The position numbers were made by a program, and so were the translations under genes. Positions 1,303 through 4,554 of a stretch of DNA of 6,411 nucleotides are shown in pieces. Source of the stretch: an uncultured Eubacteriales bacterium (lineage in GTDB: Bacteria > Bacillota_A > Clostridia > Lachnospirales > Cellulosilyticaceae); contig USPX01000119.1 of the NCBI GenBank assembly GCA_900556665.1, positions 1-6,411 on the forward strand, in the 5' to 3' direction. Each line of letters starts with the position of its first letter. Within the stretch, counting starts at the first letter, position 1. The notes under the pieces were generated by a model. It made no database searches and was not told where the DNA came from. It worked only from the letters and a program-made list of their open reading frames with translations.

Positions 1303-1869
1303 TTAAGGTAGAAAGTGGCTAGGTTTGATATATTCGATTTCATATTTAATAATGGTATTAAACATGAGATGGTCGCAGTTTATTTGATGCAAATAAATCT
1401 GGGAAATCTTTAAATTAAGATTGAAAACGGGTTCATAATTAACATATTTAGGAAGCCAGATTTTGAGCTTAATAGGTTTTGTAAAAACCATATAGCGTTT
1501 TCGCTCATAGGAAATATATGAAATGATGGTACATAAATTAGCAGAAATAGAGAGTAAATTGTAATGTTTATGGGCATAAATTTGATAAGTGCATGTTCTA
1601 AGGGCTTGCTTAATAGCACAAAGTTTGTGTAAAGGACCGCAAGTAAAACAAATATGATTTTTATAGTTCTTAAAGGCTATAAAATTATTTGTAGGAATAG
1701 GAATGCGTAAAATATTGCGTACAGAATCTTGTATAGTAAATTTTCGTACTGTACAGGAAGCAGCTACAGGATCTGTAATAGCAAATGTTTGTAGTGCGCT
1801 AGGACAGCCCACATTATAGTAATAAGTGAGCGTAGCAGTATTTGTAATAACTTTAGAACAAAAGTACAT
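1303..1869 (-). CDS. DUF11-type donor strand fused to a SPOCS/DUF3794-like domain; putative spore-surface anchor protein
   Basis: A 188-residue protein, last in the operon, 13 bases after the 586-aa gene. ATG at 1869 is chosen because AGGTG (1876-1880) lies six bases upstream; a GTG at 1878 would extend it by three residues but overlaps that site. Residues 7-21 (VITNTATLTYYYNVG) match the closing strand of DUF11 domains and the N-terminus of the 270-aa protein. Residues ~40-185 are beta-rich and basic. They follow the pattern I associate with clostridial SPOCS (DUF3794) domains: FTIQDSVRNILRIPIP near 45-59, a strand pair around NLLSISANLCTIISYIS (104-120), then VFTKPIKLKIWLP (128-140) and a final strand block. 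SPOCS domains are found in spore-coat morphogenetic proteins such as SipL. Nine cysteines (4, 22, 39, 74, 77, 84, 93, 113, 165) are unusual. There is no signal peptide or membrane helix. The reading frame and donor strand are clear; the SPOCS call is tentative and the anchoring role is inferred. Confidence 0.6.
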   Translation of the reverse strand: MYFCSKVITNTATLTYYYNVGCPSALQTFAITDPVAASCTVRKFTIQDSVRNILRIPIPTNNFIAFKNYKNHICFTCGPLHKLCAIKQALRTCTYQIYAHKHYNLLSISANLCTIISYISYERKRYMVFTKPIKLKIWLPKYVNYEPVFNLNLKISQIYLHQINCDHLMFNTIIKYEIEYIKPSHFLP

Positions 1870-1882: not shown

Positions 1883-3643
1883 TTAACAGTTAACAGAAAG
1901 TTGATATAAGAAAATGAGTGAAGATTGGGCGGGGATATTGAGTGGTAATGTATTAGTAATTGTTTGCGTGGTAACATTAAAAGCAAGCCCTAAAGTATTA
2001 GGGACAATACTAGATGTAATGTAAGTTGTACCTGGAGGAATAGGATCTGTGAAAGCATATGCTGGGATTGTAGAAGAGGTATTACCTTGATTGGTAATCG
2101 TAATAGTATACATGATTACGCCACCGCATGCTAAGATATCTTCGGTAGAGGTTGCCTTATCAATAGAAAGTGTACCAGAAATAATATAAGTATAAGCTGT
2201 TTCACTAGTTAAGGTGTTTCTGGTAGTACCCGTAGAAGTAATGATATCATATGAAATGTTTGCAGTGTTTTCAACCATATAATTAGGTGGTGGTGGTAGA
2301 GCAGTTACAATGACTTTAAAAGTAACGGTAACAGATGTTTTATCTAAAGTAGTAGCAATCGTAAAGCCAGTTTGTGGATTATAGTTAGGGTAAGAAATAT
2401 TATTAATGGTTACACTACCTGTTTTAAAGGTTGTATATTGTGGGATATTATCTTGAAAAAATACATTTCGCCAAGGAAGTGCAGTACCAGGGTTTGTAAC
2501 GGAAACTGTGTAGGTAAGTTCACTATCCACAGCAGCAGTAGTTGGTGTAACGGTTTTAGAGATAGAAGGAAAAACATCTATTTGCGTGCCAAAGGCAACA
2601 GGAATATAGTTATCATTACTTGTATCAAATGTTAAAATAGCACTTGTTTGATTAGGGGAAAGCCCTCCACTAATATCTACATTTGTAATATCAATGCCTT
2701 GTCTGGCACCTAAAATGCTATTAAGTGCATTGTGATTATTATTTCCCATACTTCCTCTTGTATCTACCGTTCCTACTGGAAGCGTGCCATTATAATCTCC
2801 CACATTAATGGCACTTGTAAAGAAATTAGAAGCACCGTTGTTCGGACCAGATAGAGTAACTTGTGAGTTAAGTGTTGCACCAAATTTAACAAAGTCACCA
2901 GAAAAACGAATATCACCTTCACCAGCAGCAATGACAGCCCTCCCAAAAATAGGCGGCGCATTAGGGGTGATGACATTAGGGATTGTAACAGATACAGCCC
3001 TTGGCGTCGTGTCATTTCTGACAGGAACGCCTAAGACATAAATGCTTAAATTTCTATAGGGTTGTGTGAAATCCTGGTAAGCAACCAGCAAACACCAGCC
3101 GCCACAGACAGAATTATCATTATTAGCAGCAACTGCGCCGGGAATACCAAGGGCTGTATAGGTTCTAGTCCCTGAAATGATTCTGTTTGTTACGTTGGCA
3201 CTACGCACATAAACATTATAGCCAGGCATTGCAACCGTATTGGCAGTAGTGGGATCTGGTGTAATAGAATAGGAGACATTCACACCAGAAGTATTAGGTG
3301 CAATGAAGGTGATATTGGCATTAGGATTTAAGTTGTTTAATATAGTGGCAAACCAAACGAGTTCGGCATAAAGTATGGTAGCAGCAGGTGGAACATAAAG
3401 GACAGCTCTTGAACCAATATTAGAGGTGGTATTATTTGTACTAATACCAACCGTAGAATCAAGACTAGCTTGTGAGGTCCATCCAGTGGCAACACTTAGG
3501 TTATTCGTACTAAGATGCGCACCCTGGGAACCATTATTACCAGGTAATAAGGAACCTACACGTTTATCTAGTCCTATGGTATTCCCAGTTATAACAACAG
3601 CGCCCCTAGTAGTAGTTAAAAAACGATTATTAATGGTTGCCAT
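1883..3643 (-). CDS. DUF11 domain surface protein without signal peptide (putative spore-surface fibre subunit)
   Basis: A 586-residue Thr/Asn/Ser-rich, beta-rich protein. Residues 1-355 form a large N-terminal region starting MATINNRFLTTTRGAVVITG; this opening recurs, as I remember, in DUF11 proteins of the Bacillus cereus group. It contains CGGWC (180-184) and AGEGDIRFSGD (240-250). A complete DUF11 domain spans ~357-488: SKTVTP, SELTYTVSVTNPG, VFFQDNIP and the closing strand ENTANISY (458-465). A second module (489-586) opens GTLSIDKAT, has ACG (Cys506), MYTITITNQGN and AFTDPIPPGTTY, and stops at a final Cys586. It thus lacks the usual closing NTA strand. There is no signal peptide, transmembrane segment, LPXTG or S-layer motif, so ordinary export is unlikely. 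AAGGAGG seven bases upstream fixes the start. Middle gene of the operon, 20 bases after the 270-aa gene. Domain family is sure; spore-surface location is inference from context. Confidence 0.8.
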   Translation of the reverse strand: MATINNRFLTTTRGAVVITGNTIGLDKRVGSLLPGNNGSQGAHLSTNNLSVATGWTSQASLDSTVGISTNNTTSNIGSRAVLYVPPAATILYAELVWFATILNNLNPNANITFIAPNTSGVNVSYSITPDPTTANTVAMPGYNVYVRSANVTNRIISGTRTYTALGIPGAVAANNDNSVCGGWCLLVAYQDFTQPYRNLSIYVLGVPVRNDTTPRAVSVTIPNVITPNAPPIFGRAVIAAGEGDIRFSGDFVKFGATLNSQVTLSGPNNGASNFFTSAINVGDYNGTLPVGTVDTRGSMGNNNHNALNSILGARQGIDITNVDISGGLSPNQTSAILTFDTSNDNYIPVAFGTQIDVFPSISKTVTPTTAAVDSELTYTVSVTNPGTALPWRNVFFQDNIPQYTTFKTGSVTINNISYPNYNPQTGFTIATTLDKTSVTVTFKVIVTALPPPPNYMVENTANISYDIITSTGTTRNTLTSETAYTYIISGTLSIDKATSTEDILACGGVIMYTITITNQGNTSSTIPAYAFTDPIPPGTTYITSSIVPNTLGLAFNVTTQTITNTLPLNIPAQSSLIFLYQLSVNC

Positions 3644-3650
3644 TAAAATT

Positions 3651-3657
3651 CCTCCTT
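3651..3657 (-). promoter_or_regulatory. Ribosome-binding site of the 586-aa gene
   Basis: AAGGAGG on the minus strand, seven bases before the ATG, lies wholly in the 20-base gap after the preceding stop. The segment GGAGGAATTTTAATGGCA closely resembles the site of the 270-aa gene (GGAGGGAATTTTATGGCA), consistent with gene duplication or matched translation rates. Confidence 0.85.
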
Positions 3658-3663
3658 AGCAAA

Positions 3664-4476
3664 CTAGAATGTTGGACATTGGACCGTAACATTATAAACA
3701 ACAACAAAATTAGTTTGAGGTGGAATGACTATTGAAGTGGTATTAGTAACCGCGCTGCCATTAAAAGTAAAAGTAGCAGGAGATAGAGATTCAGCATAGG
3801 CTACACCATGAGGAAGTGGGTCCGTGAAATCACCAGCTAGAATAGTGGCTTCAACATTTCCTGTATTTCTAATTGTAATAGTATAAGTTAGAACTTGACC
3901 ACAAGCAACAGGGGTACCTTCAGGAACAGATGATGCCTTATCAATTGTTAAAGTACCATTTTGGATTTGTAAGTTACAAGCATCTGTTAAATCATTTGTA
4001 CTACCTGTAGTTGGTTCTGTAAAAAAGGCTGTTGCAATTGTATTATAATTATAAGTTAAATCTGCACCAGGTAATAATTTAAGTGTAACTGTTGCAGTGA
4101 CTGATTCGCCAGGTCCGAGGCCTCCACTAACTTGAGCAAGATCCATGTCAAAACGTCCAGTTGTAACAATGTAGTTAAGGACATTATTTGTATTCAAAAT
4201 AACAATATAAGGATTACTGATTAAAATATCATCTTGTACAGCAATATTAGAAAACACAGGTGTTGCAGCAGCGGTATTATTAGTAGCGGTATAAGTAATG
4301 GTAATTTCTTGATTGACATCAGAAAAGTGTGGATTACATACCTTTTGAAAGTCAACAATCGTATTTGTAACGGTATTTGTAACTGTATCAAAAATAGGTG
4401 TCGCAATGACTTTGATGGTATCACCTACATTATATTGATACTTTCCAATGGTGGCAGTATTAATAATTTGTGCCAT
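3664..4476 (-). CDS. Two-module DUF11-type protein with N-terminal donor-like strand; putative polymerising fibre subunit
   Basis: A 270-residue (about 29 kDa by length) protein, first gene of the operon. Residues 4-18 (IINTATIGKYQYNVG) look like the closing strand of a DUF11 fold, displaced to the N-terminus. A first DUF11-like module runs ~44-170: QKVC, EITITYTATNNT, FSNIAVQDDI, VSGGLGPGESVTATVTL, then its own closing strand YNTIATAFF near 144-152, with Cys47 and Cys167 at its ends. A second module (174-270) opens GTLTIDKASS, with ACG (Cys192), LTYTITIRNTGN, DFTDPLPHGVAY and VTVQC (Cys267), three residues before the end; it matches the C-terminal module of the 586-aa protein and likewise lacks a closing strand. 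No signal peptide or membrane anchor is present. From memory, the ~29-kDa spore-appendage proteins P29a/P29b of Clostridium taeniosporum were described as carrying DUF11 domains; homology to them is untested. The start is fixed by GGAGGG upstream. Domain call is firm; function is inferred. Confidence 0.78.
   Translation of the reverse strand: MAQIINTATIGKYQYNVGDTIKVIATPIFDTVTNTVTNTIVDFQKVCNPHFSDVNQEITITYTATNNTAAATPVFSNIAVQDDILISNPYIVILNTNNVLNYIVTTGRFDMDLAQVSGGLGPGESVTATVTLKLLPGADLTYNYNTIATAFFTEPTTGSTNDLTDACNLQIQNGTLTIDKASSVPEGTPVACGQVLTYTITIRNTGNVEATILAGDFTDPLPHGVAYAESLSPATFTFNGSAVTNTTSIVIPPQTNFVVVYNVTVQCPTF
4361..4384 (-). repeat. Tandem 12-bp repeat inside the 270-aa gene
   Basis: GTATTTGTAACG and GTATTTGTAACT (plus-strand reading) are adjacent and differ at one base; a degenerate partial copy follows. 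They encode the VTNTVTNT stretch at about residues 32-39, the linker between the N-terminal strand and the first DUF11 module. The unit is four codons long, so slippage would change linker length without a frameshift. Confidence 0.8.
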
Positions 4477-4506: not shown

Positions 4507-4534
4507 CATCATATGTATGTTTTTATAAAAAGGT
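4507..4534 (-). promoter_or_regulatory. Candidate mother-cell sigma (sigma-K/E-like) promoter of the DUF11 operon
   Basis: Read on the minus strand, AC (4534-4533) is followed after 17 bases by CATATGATG (4515-4507). The sigma-K consensus, from established knowledge, is AC, 16-17 bases, CATAnnnTA; only the last base differs. The overlapping CATACATA (4519-4512) also resembles a sigma-E -10 (CATACAnT), though its -35 is poor. Transcription would start near 4500, leaving a leader of roughly 24 bases that just accommodates the ribosome site. No good sigma-A pair was found: TTGTCA and TATGAT are present but 20 bases apart. The region is AT-rich, so chance matches are possible. Confidence 0.4.
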
Positions 4535-4554
4535 GACAAGTTAAAAGAAGAATA

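Follow-up and report, generated by a model that had tools for sequence, protein, structure and literature searches.

Three neighbouring genes in a 6,411-nucleotide stretch of DNA from an uncultured Eubacteriales bacterium (contig USPX01000119.1; the whole stretch is called the window) encode proteins of 270, 586, and 188 amino acids (aa), all read from the minus strand. The 270- and 586-aa proteins carry modules of the DUF11 family, and the last module of each stops just before the strand that closes such modules elsewhere; the 270- and 188-aa proteins begin with a strand of that kind. I propose that the three genes are a single operon, active in the mother cell at a late stage of sporulation, and that its product would be a spore-surface chain of DUF11 (CLIPPER) beta-sandwich modules, severed in the loop ahead of the closing strand that bears Asn and completed in trans, with an isopeptide bond probably locking the joint. 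I put the probability of this reading, taken as a whole, at about 0.6. An earlier reading of these genes (the original prediction) had already supposed that the fold is split across subunits. What is new is that the Lys-Asp-Asn triad is split along with it, and that a sporulation-type promoter precedes the first gene.

The features concerned are these:

4507..4535, minus strand: sigma-K-like promoter, 9 of 10 consensus bases, beginning 59 bases upstream of the start codon of the 270-aa protein
3664..4476, minus strand: 270-aa two-module protein, with an N-terminal donor strand and two DUF11-like modules, the second open at the C-terminus; predicted donor and acceptor
4426..4467, minus strand: putative donor strand of the 270-aa protein, residues 4-17, IINTATIGKYQYNV; Asn6 codon at 4459-4461
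4012..4356, minus strand: module 1 of the 270-aa protein, about residues 41-155, complete; Lys45, Asp82, and the conserved Cys47/Cys167 pair; Thr146 replaces Asn
3667..3957, minus strand: module 2 of the 270-aa protein, about residues 174-270, open; Lys180 (3937-3939), Asp219 (3820-3822), Cys192/Cys267
1883..3643, minus strand: 586-aa head protein, with a head region (residues 1-358), a complete DUF11 module, and an open terminal module; predicted acceptor only
2204..2569, minus strand: module 1 of the 586-aa protein, about residues 359-480, closed in cis by ENTANISY; triad Lys363-Asp398-Asn459, with the Asn459 codon at 2267-2269
1886..2176, minus strand: open terminal module of the 586-aa protein, about residues 490-586; Lys496 (2156-2158), Asp533 (2045-2047), Cys506/Cys586
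1303..1869, minus strand: 188-aa third protein, with a donor strand and a variable, Cys-containing C-terminal part that has no Pfam match; predicted donor only
1810..1851, minus strand: putative donor strand of the 188-aa protein, residues 7-20, VITNTATLTYYYNV; Asn10 codon at 1840-1842

The 188-aa gene lies outside positions 1883..4476, which the original prediction covered. It is taken here from its ATG, the list of open reading frames (ORFs) giving 191 aa from an upstream GTG.

Gene order and open terminal modules

The order 270-586-third gene is complete in the window and in four further genomes (loci L001, L003, L004, and L042), and relatives of the 586-aa protein are encoded on four genome contigs (L001, L002, L003, and L004). 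On L002, from a Cellulosilyticum metagenome-assembled genome, the relative was matched from residue 119 onward and is accompanied by a third gene. A protein search found seven relatives of the 270-aa protein, one of them 99% identical, and an alignment search found ten proteins of the same type among 27 matches; the length is 269-271 aa in all ten and in the L001, L003, and L042 copies. The roles assigned by the original prediction (586 acceptor only, 270 both donor and acceptor, 188 donor only) fit all five three-gene loci. A parallel two-gene form occurs in the divergent genome G198 (L045), where a 567-aa head adjoins a 252-aa two-module protein; both end open, and the latter has a canonical closing strand at its start. 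L043 and L046 make a weaker case: there an open-ended head of several modules precedes a Cys-rich protein that contains LINTAYVT not far from its N-terminus. The small proteins at L043 7835-8551 and L046 4666-5379, which come after open-ended multi-module DUF11 heads, have 26-27 cysteines and Cys-Pro repeats.

Membership in the family is clear for the 586-aa protein, which scores above cut-off against PF01345 (38.2 bits, cut-off 24.6), TIGR01451 (63.2, cut-off 24), and TIGR04226 (33.1, cut-off 30), the last being NCBIfam's isopeptide domain. DUF11 has been renamed CLIPPER in a 2025 survey (PMC12617251). The 270-aa protein passes TIGR01451 (32.1, cut-off 24) and stays under the cut-off of PF01345 at 22.9 bits. 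Fold searches gave many beta-sandwich matches, used for fold class only, and a PDB search with the 270-aa sequence gave no match.

The internal module of the 586-aa protein contains VENTANISYDI, which includes Asn459; its terminal module ends with LIFLYQLSVNC at the stop codon, and that of the 270-aa protein with VVVYNVTVQCPTF, again at the stop. Two hidden Markov models (HMMs) of the module locate these ends. HMM 1 was built from 66 complete internal modules, and its closing strand occupies positions 94-105 (consensus PISNQASVTYQF). HMM 2 was built from 54 modules, all from outside the lineage, and applied to the last 110 residues of each chain. Internal modules of the loci mostly reach positions 104-114 of HMM 1 (one L044 module stops at 94). 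The terminal modules end at positions 84-88, coinciding with the end of the chain, in 12 of 15 locus proteins; the exceptions are the window's 586-aa protein and L004b, whose weak matches break off at 60-63, and L004h, which is unmatched. With HMM 2 all 15 end at 84-88. The claim that the C-terminal modules of both proteins stop before the closing strand is borne out by these ends. The companion claim, that internal modules close with an NTA-type strand, holds for ENTANISY of the 586-aa protein and needs correction for YNTIATAFF of the 270-aa protein, which has Thr where most modules have Asn.

The open end is conserved among near relatives. All 14 members of the set A2 (the window's 586-aa protein and 13 others) end at an invariant Cys, no more than one residue from the end and without a closing strand. 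Of 112 homologues of the 586-aa protein, 30 are open at that end, 30 were classed closed, three end earlier, and 49 are unclassed. The closed class takes in a fusion protein, P0011 (considered below), and P0022, whose terminal module is unmatched; the unclassed group takes in P0008, P0012, and P0019, of 586 type with weak, early-ending terminal matches, and many proteins with VTATG-like ends. Many DUF11 proteins of about 730-850 aa (P0034, P0037, P0040, and similar) end after the penultimate strand in a conserved ..C.VTATGx or ..CTVQ tail. At least P0034 and P0102 show by inspection a signal-peptide-like stretch at the N-terminus.

A strand like the missing one at the start of another protein

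Then there is the strand itself. A donor profile of 14 positions, built from the 54 outside-lineage modules, was run along the N-terminal 45 residues of the candidates and of 105 control N-termini (among them L047, 340 aa, possibly itself a donor and kept in). A gapped version allowing one inserted residue was devised after the family's extra residue had been noticed, and the controls were scored likewise. With the gapped profile, all six lineage third-gene donors outscore all 105 controls, as do six of six two-module donors (five from the lineage and the divergent L045) and nine of nine database rows, one of which is identical to L004b. That the 270- and 188-aa proteins start with a closing-type strand, as had been claimed, is confirmed in this sense, above every control with one insertion allowed. 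With the ungapped profile the strand of the window's 270-aa protein is not distinctive (6 of 105 controls as good), because the 270 family has a one-residue bulge, and ten of 15 two-module rows are equalled by 1 to 16 controls. The inserted residue is also present inside complete modules of L043 and L046 (VVNTANLASYTY). Within the lineage the 270-type strands carry the one-residue insertion and the third-gene strands are without it. As a sequence difference, it might be a code for partner choice.

The position of the strand fits that of a closing strand between tandem modules. Across 142 internal junctions, Asn lies 34.5 residues (median; interquartile range 34-36) from the next module; L042's two-module protein has 36 residues between Asn6 and the next module, as computed by hand from the HMM match. 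The strand is also conserved. Seven third-gene sequences have a mean pairwise identity of 48% over the strand, as against 19% for the rest and 25.5% for the best other window of the alignment, and in 13 proteins of 270 type residues 4-18 are surpassed in conservation by just one of 256 windows.

The two halves occur naturally fused in one metagenome record. P0011 (765 aa) is a 586-type protein running in frame into a 188-type protein. Against HMM 2 its terminal module scores 34.1 bits intact and 26.4 bits if truncated behind the penultimate strand; the match ends at 110 in the intact chain and at 87 in the truncated one. Of joins made in silico between 15 acceptors and six lineage third-gene donors, all 90 beat all 105 controls. 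When two-module proteins are joined to themselves, no control is as good for the window's 270-aa protein or for L004b, and one of 105 is for L045b.

One might suppose that all this reflects chance or domain boundaries, ordinary DUF11 truncations beside leading strands that are merely NTA-like. Beta strands are short and degenerate, the closed and unclear classes take up 30 and 49 of the 112 homologues, and the ungapped profile fails to single out the window's 270 strand. I nonetheless give this account very little credence, for both halves are conserved in five three-gene loci, scoring above controls with one insertion, and the natural fusion restores the module profile.

A triad divided between proteins

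In the DUF11 crystal structure 9IFR an intramolecular bond links Lys715 to Asn806, with Asp748 the presumed catalyst (PMC12617251). The same structure is the top PDB match (E 0.00038) of a profile of 15 internal modules. The modules considered here belong to the same family and share its Lys-Asp-Asn: the alignment spans Lys and Asp, and Asn is matched by spacing, lying 58 residues after Asp in 9IFR and 59 in the HMM. Complete modules in which the Lys column is covered carry all three residues in 148 of 163 cases, and eight more have Asp for Asn. In module 1 of the 586-aa protein, Lys363, Asp398, and Asn459 are all invariant in A2, and by its sequence this module should form an intramolecular isopeptide bond.

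In the open modules the triad is divided. A selection of 32 distinct open terminal modules, taken from the loci and close relatives, has both Lys and Asp in every one, and only one other of 96 columns is fully invariant. A wider set of 50 open modules has Asp in every one and Lys in the 32 of 32 where the match covers the Lys column. Asn is absent from open modules, since the chain ends before that position. All 23 distinct donor strands carry it at the corresponding site, at positions chosen by hand from the motif, a count that is not independent because the donor profile itself leans strongly on Asn. As judged from these sequences, the triad is split between proteins, the reactive Lys and catalytic Asp on one and the Asn on another; in the structure described in PMC12617251 it lies within one chain. 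Lys and Asp on one side and Asn on the other mean that the joint may become covalent. A caution comes from module 1 of the 270 family, which keeps Lys45 and Asp82 despite having Thr or Ser in place of Asn, so that retention of Lys and Asp is no proof of a partner Asn. Neither the open modules nor module 1 of the 270-aa protein (Thr146) has a full triad within its own chain.

Cysteines accompany both modules of the 270 family. Cys47 and Cys167 make a pair in module 1, where the isopeptide Asn is missing. Cys192 and Cys267 of the terminal module are either both present or both absent, a pattern from which the pair may be supposed to hold the open module ready. A disulfide between subunits was considered and rejected; the cysteines of the terminal module co-occur within that module.

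I propose that the N-terminal strand of the 270- or 188-aa protein would complete, in trans, the open terminal module of the 586- or 270-aa protein. The resulting chain would be 586-(270)n-188, the 586 head forming one end and the 188-aa protein serving as base or cap. A spontaneous intermolecular Lys-Asn isopeptide bond would then probably lock the joint, Lys180 or Lys496 reacting with Asn6 or Asn10, since Lys and the catalytic Asp remain on the open module and Asn comes with the donor. The strongest form of the proposal, a natural split-isopeptide polymer in which spore-surface chains lock themselves by such bonds with no sortase, chaperone, or other enzyme, I hold at slightly under even odds. 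An alternative is that the strand is donated in trans with no covalent bond between subunits. The HMM ends, donor scores, and joins speak for it too, and TasA is a precedent for polymerisation through a donor strand (PMC9674648). The retention of Lys and Asp in 32 of 32 open modules, facing Asn in 23 of 23 donors at a spacing near that of the solved DUF11 triad, argues against it, and I consider it unlikely.

Weighing the proposal

Several results weigh against the proposal as a whole. P0011 is a single metagenome record. AlphaFold2 left its strand unplaced: residues 589-765 fall below 50 in predicted local distance difference test score (pLDDT), with ten-residue means mostly 21-33. Scored with HMM 2, joins in silico with two-module donors give mixed results, anything from 0 to 104 controls doing as well. 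For the self-joins of L001b, L003b, and L042b the figures are 102, 96, and 43 of 105 controls, and for the strand of the window's 270-aa protein on the module of its 586-aa neighbour, six. By the gapped profile the L043 and L046 donors are borderline (4 of 105 controls equal), and that of L044 fails (71 of 105), leaving its donor pairing unsupported. The heads of L044 and L045 have no sigma-K-like motif before them.

The model of P0011 speaks neither for insertion nor against it, because the tail had no aligned relatives, the input being 25 that cover the 586 part only. The idea of a fold split across subunits has support in motif, position, junction length, conservation, gene linkage, the natural fusion, and the parallel two-gene system; what it did not gain is a placement of the strand by AlphaFold2 in the fusion.

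It may be that the strands act in cis, each packing on the first module of its own chain, and that open modules are stable alone, for example by way of Cys192/Cys267. The terminal module of P0011 is indeed well modelled without the strand (residues 491-580, ten-residue means 81-94 pLDDT), and the cysteine pair of the 270 family comes and goes as a unit. Over residues 1-40, however, the model of the 270-aa monomer has ten-residue means of 33-55 pLDDT, a low confidence that leaves the strand not firmly paired within its own chain. Moreover, the strand copies a closing strand with the spacing of a tandem-repeat junction, and no stretch of the third proteins, which have no recognised DUF11 module, is more conserved. 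For the 188-aa protein nothing matched in Pfam (E up to 10) or in NCBIfam (E up to 1). Action in cis seems to me quite improbable.

The strands might also act in trans and yet build no polymer, only a fixed heteromeric complex or short stalk with one donor per acceptor, the 270-aa protein on the 586 and the 188 on the 270. The insertion that separates 270-type from third-gene strands could encode just such a choice of partner, and a single 270-type gene is found in each of G001, G003, G004, and G672. The 270-aa protein has both ends, however, and nothing in its sequence bars 270-270 joints; its self-join stands above all controls, though those of three other loci (L001b, L003b, and L042b) fail. 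A stalk of fixed composition strikes me as a minority prospect. I prefer the chain 586-(270)n-188.

A promoter-like motif of the sporulation type

The sigma-K consensus mACm-N16-CATANNNTA, with 10 scored bases, was taken from PMC5749712. A match of 9 or 10 of the 10 bases starts at -57 to -63 before the first gene in five of five three-gene loci, and none was found upstream of internal or flanking genes (0 of 10). The five loci are not independent, because L001, L003, and L042 resemble one another. Within -65 to -55, an interval set after a first look at the site positions, 0 to 1.1% of shuffled sequences yield such a site; over all 160 bases, 1.1-7.1% do (range over the five loci). Sites also precede the head of L046 (-61) and that of L043 (-60, counted from an internal Met 63 bases into the ORF). 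A sigma-K-like sequence before the first gene suggests that the product is a spore-surface structure. Also in its favour, SpoIVA is present in all eight carrier genomes tested (seven above cut-off, one split over two contigs), a count made in carriers only.

Comparison with known systems

At the level of sequence these proteins share one trait of donor-strand filaments, an incomplete beta-sandwich with an N-terminal extension resembling the missing strand. The original prediction drew the parallel with chaperone-usher pili. The likeness of the donor strand survives; the rest of the parallel does not, as none of the five window proteins matched a chaperone or usher family and no signal peptide is evident by inspection. 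Sortase attachment fares no better: no sortase was matched among the five proteins, there is by inspection no LPXTG-type tail, the chains ending at a strand, and neither signal peptide nor sorting tail is evident on the 270-, 586-, or 188-aa proteins. The subunit family of the endospore appendages (ENA) is DUF3992. Neither that family nor DUF4183 was matched by the window proteins in Pfam at E up to 1. S-ENA and F-ENA are spore fibres linked by way of N-terminal extensions (PMC11952670, PMC8619143). F-ENA differs in having a DUF4183 subunit, and the parts of these two papers considered here mention DUF11 only as four domains in F-Anchor-3 and zero to four in its homologues. By the sequence features tested, the system is not chaperone-usher, sortase, ENA, or F-ENA.

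SpyTag/SpyCatcher, isopeptag, and other tag/catcher pairs are engineered splits of a beta-sandwich isopeptide domain, the strand with the acyl residue being parted from a remainder that holds Lys and the acid. The likeness is the divided isopeptide domain. The difference is that those splits are engineered, and the one proposed here would be natural and within a chain-forming subunit.

Similar in working is TasA of Bacillus subtilis, whose N-terminal donor strand completes the next subunit, with the operon's accessory protein, TapA, modelled as a donor as well (PMC9674648). TasA differs in its jelly roll, its signal peptides, and its self-complemented monomer, and no isopeptide triad was found in the parts of that report considered. 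In the archaeal thread of Saci_0406/0405, subunits are joined by donor-strand complementation, and both an intermolecular isopeptide bond and a cap lacking an acceptor site have been proposed (PMC9715654). There the bond runs from an N-terminal amine to an Asn two subunits away, and the protein has no Pfam domain and has a signal peptide (PMC9715654). Sporesilk is a spore fibre with autocatalytic intermolecular isopeptide bonds and a helical fold (as cited in PMC12617251). It indicates that self-crosslinking spore fibres exist, and the novelty here would therefore be the split DUF11 joint. Among the open-access literature matches listed (titles, abstract openings, and passages), none concerned a split DUF11 or donor-strand assembly by DUF11.

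A further counterpart by description is the ribbon appendages of Clostridium taeniosporum spores (P29a/P29b, CRD1/2, and HYPO2/3), whose gene cluster includes proteins of 269, 564, and 158/160 aa and has DUF11 in four of nine and candidate sigma-K promoters (PMC5749712). Protein sizes are nearly equal to those here, and DUF11, the sigma-K candidates, and the nature of a spore appendage are shared, the likeness being one of description; that cluster differs in also having the collagen-like GP85 (PMC5749712).

If the proposal is true, then the window holds a natural counterpart of SpyTag/SpyCatcher, one that builds a chain instead of bracing a single domain, and a new route to spore appendages using a domain widespread in bacteria and archaea. 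The open C-termini of a number of DUF11 proteins would become readable as a code (acceptor, donor, or both), a new family of self-locking protein tags would be at hand, and a mechanism would be suggested for the ribbon appendages of C. taeniosporum.

Neighbouring genes and distribution

The trio is flanked in the window by genes for a short-chain dehydrogenase (SDR) and an SNF2-type helicase. In two single chains, P0063 and P0070, DUF11 modules are followed by a SPOCS domain (PF12673) at the C-terminus, and these prompted the idea that the 188-aa protein is a SPOCS anchor. The idea was rejected: profile comparison gives at most 0.6% probability for third-gene families, as against 73-99.7% for SPOCS compared with SPOCS. 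At L047 6422-6919 a SPOCS protein neighbours a DUF11 protein that has a single module and a junction-like N-terminus.

The gene set occurs sporadically. Among three genome samples drawn from that family or class (24, 391, and 397 genomes), strong full-length matches to the 270 profile occur only in G004 and G672. A genome search with patterns from the 270-aa protein itself gave 45 pattern matches, none confirmed, and none on plasmids. In a family-level search of 71 genomes, the 270 profile matched only long frames of 1,016-2,721 aa. In other Clostridia (G784, G647, G829, and G854), frames of about 2,100 to 2,900 aa match the profile repeatedly or in part.

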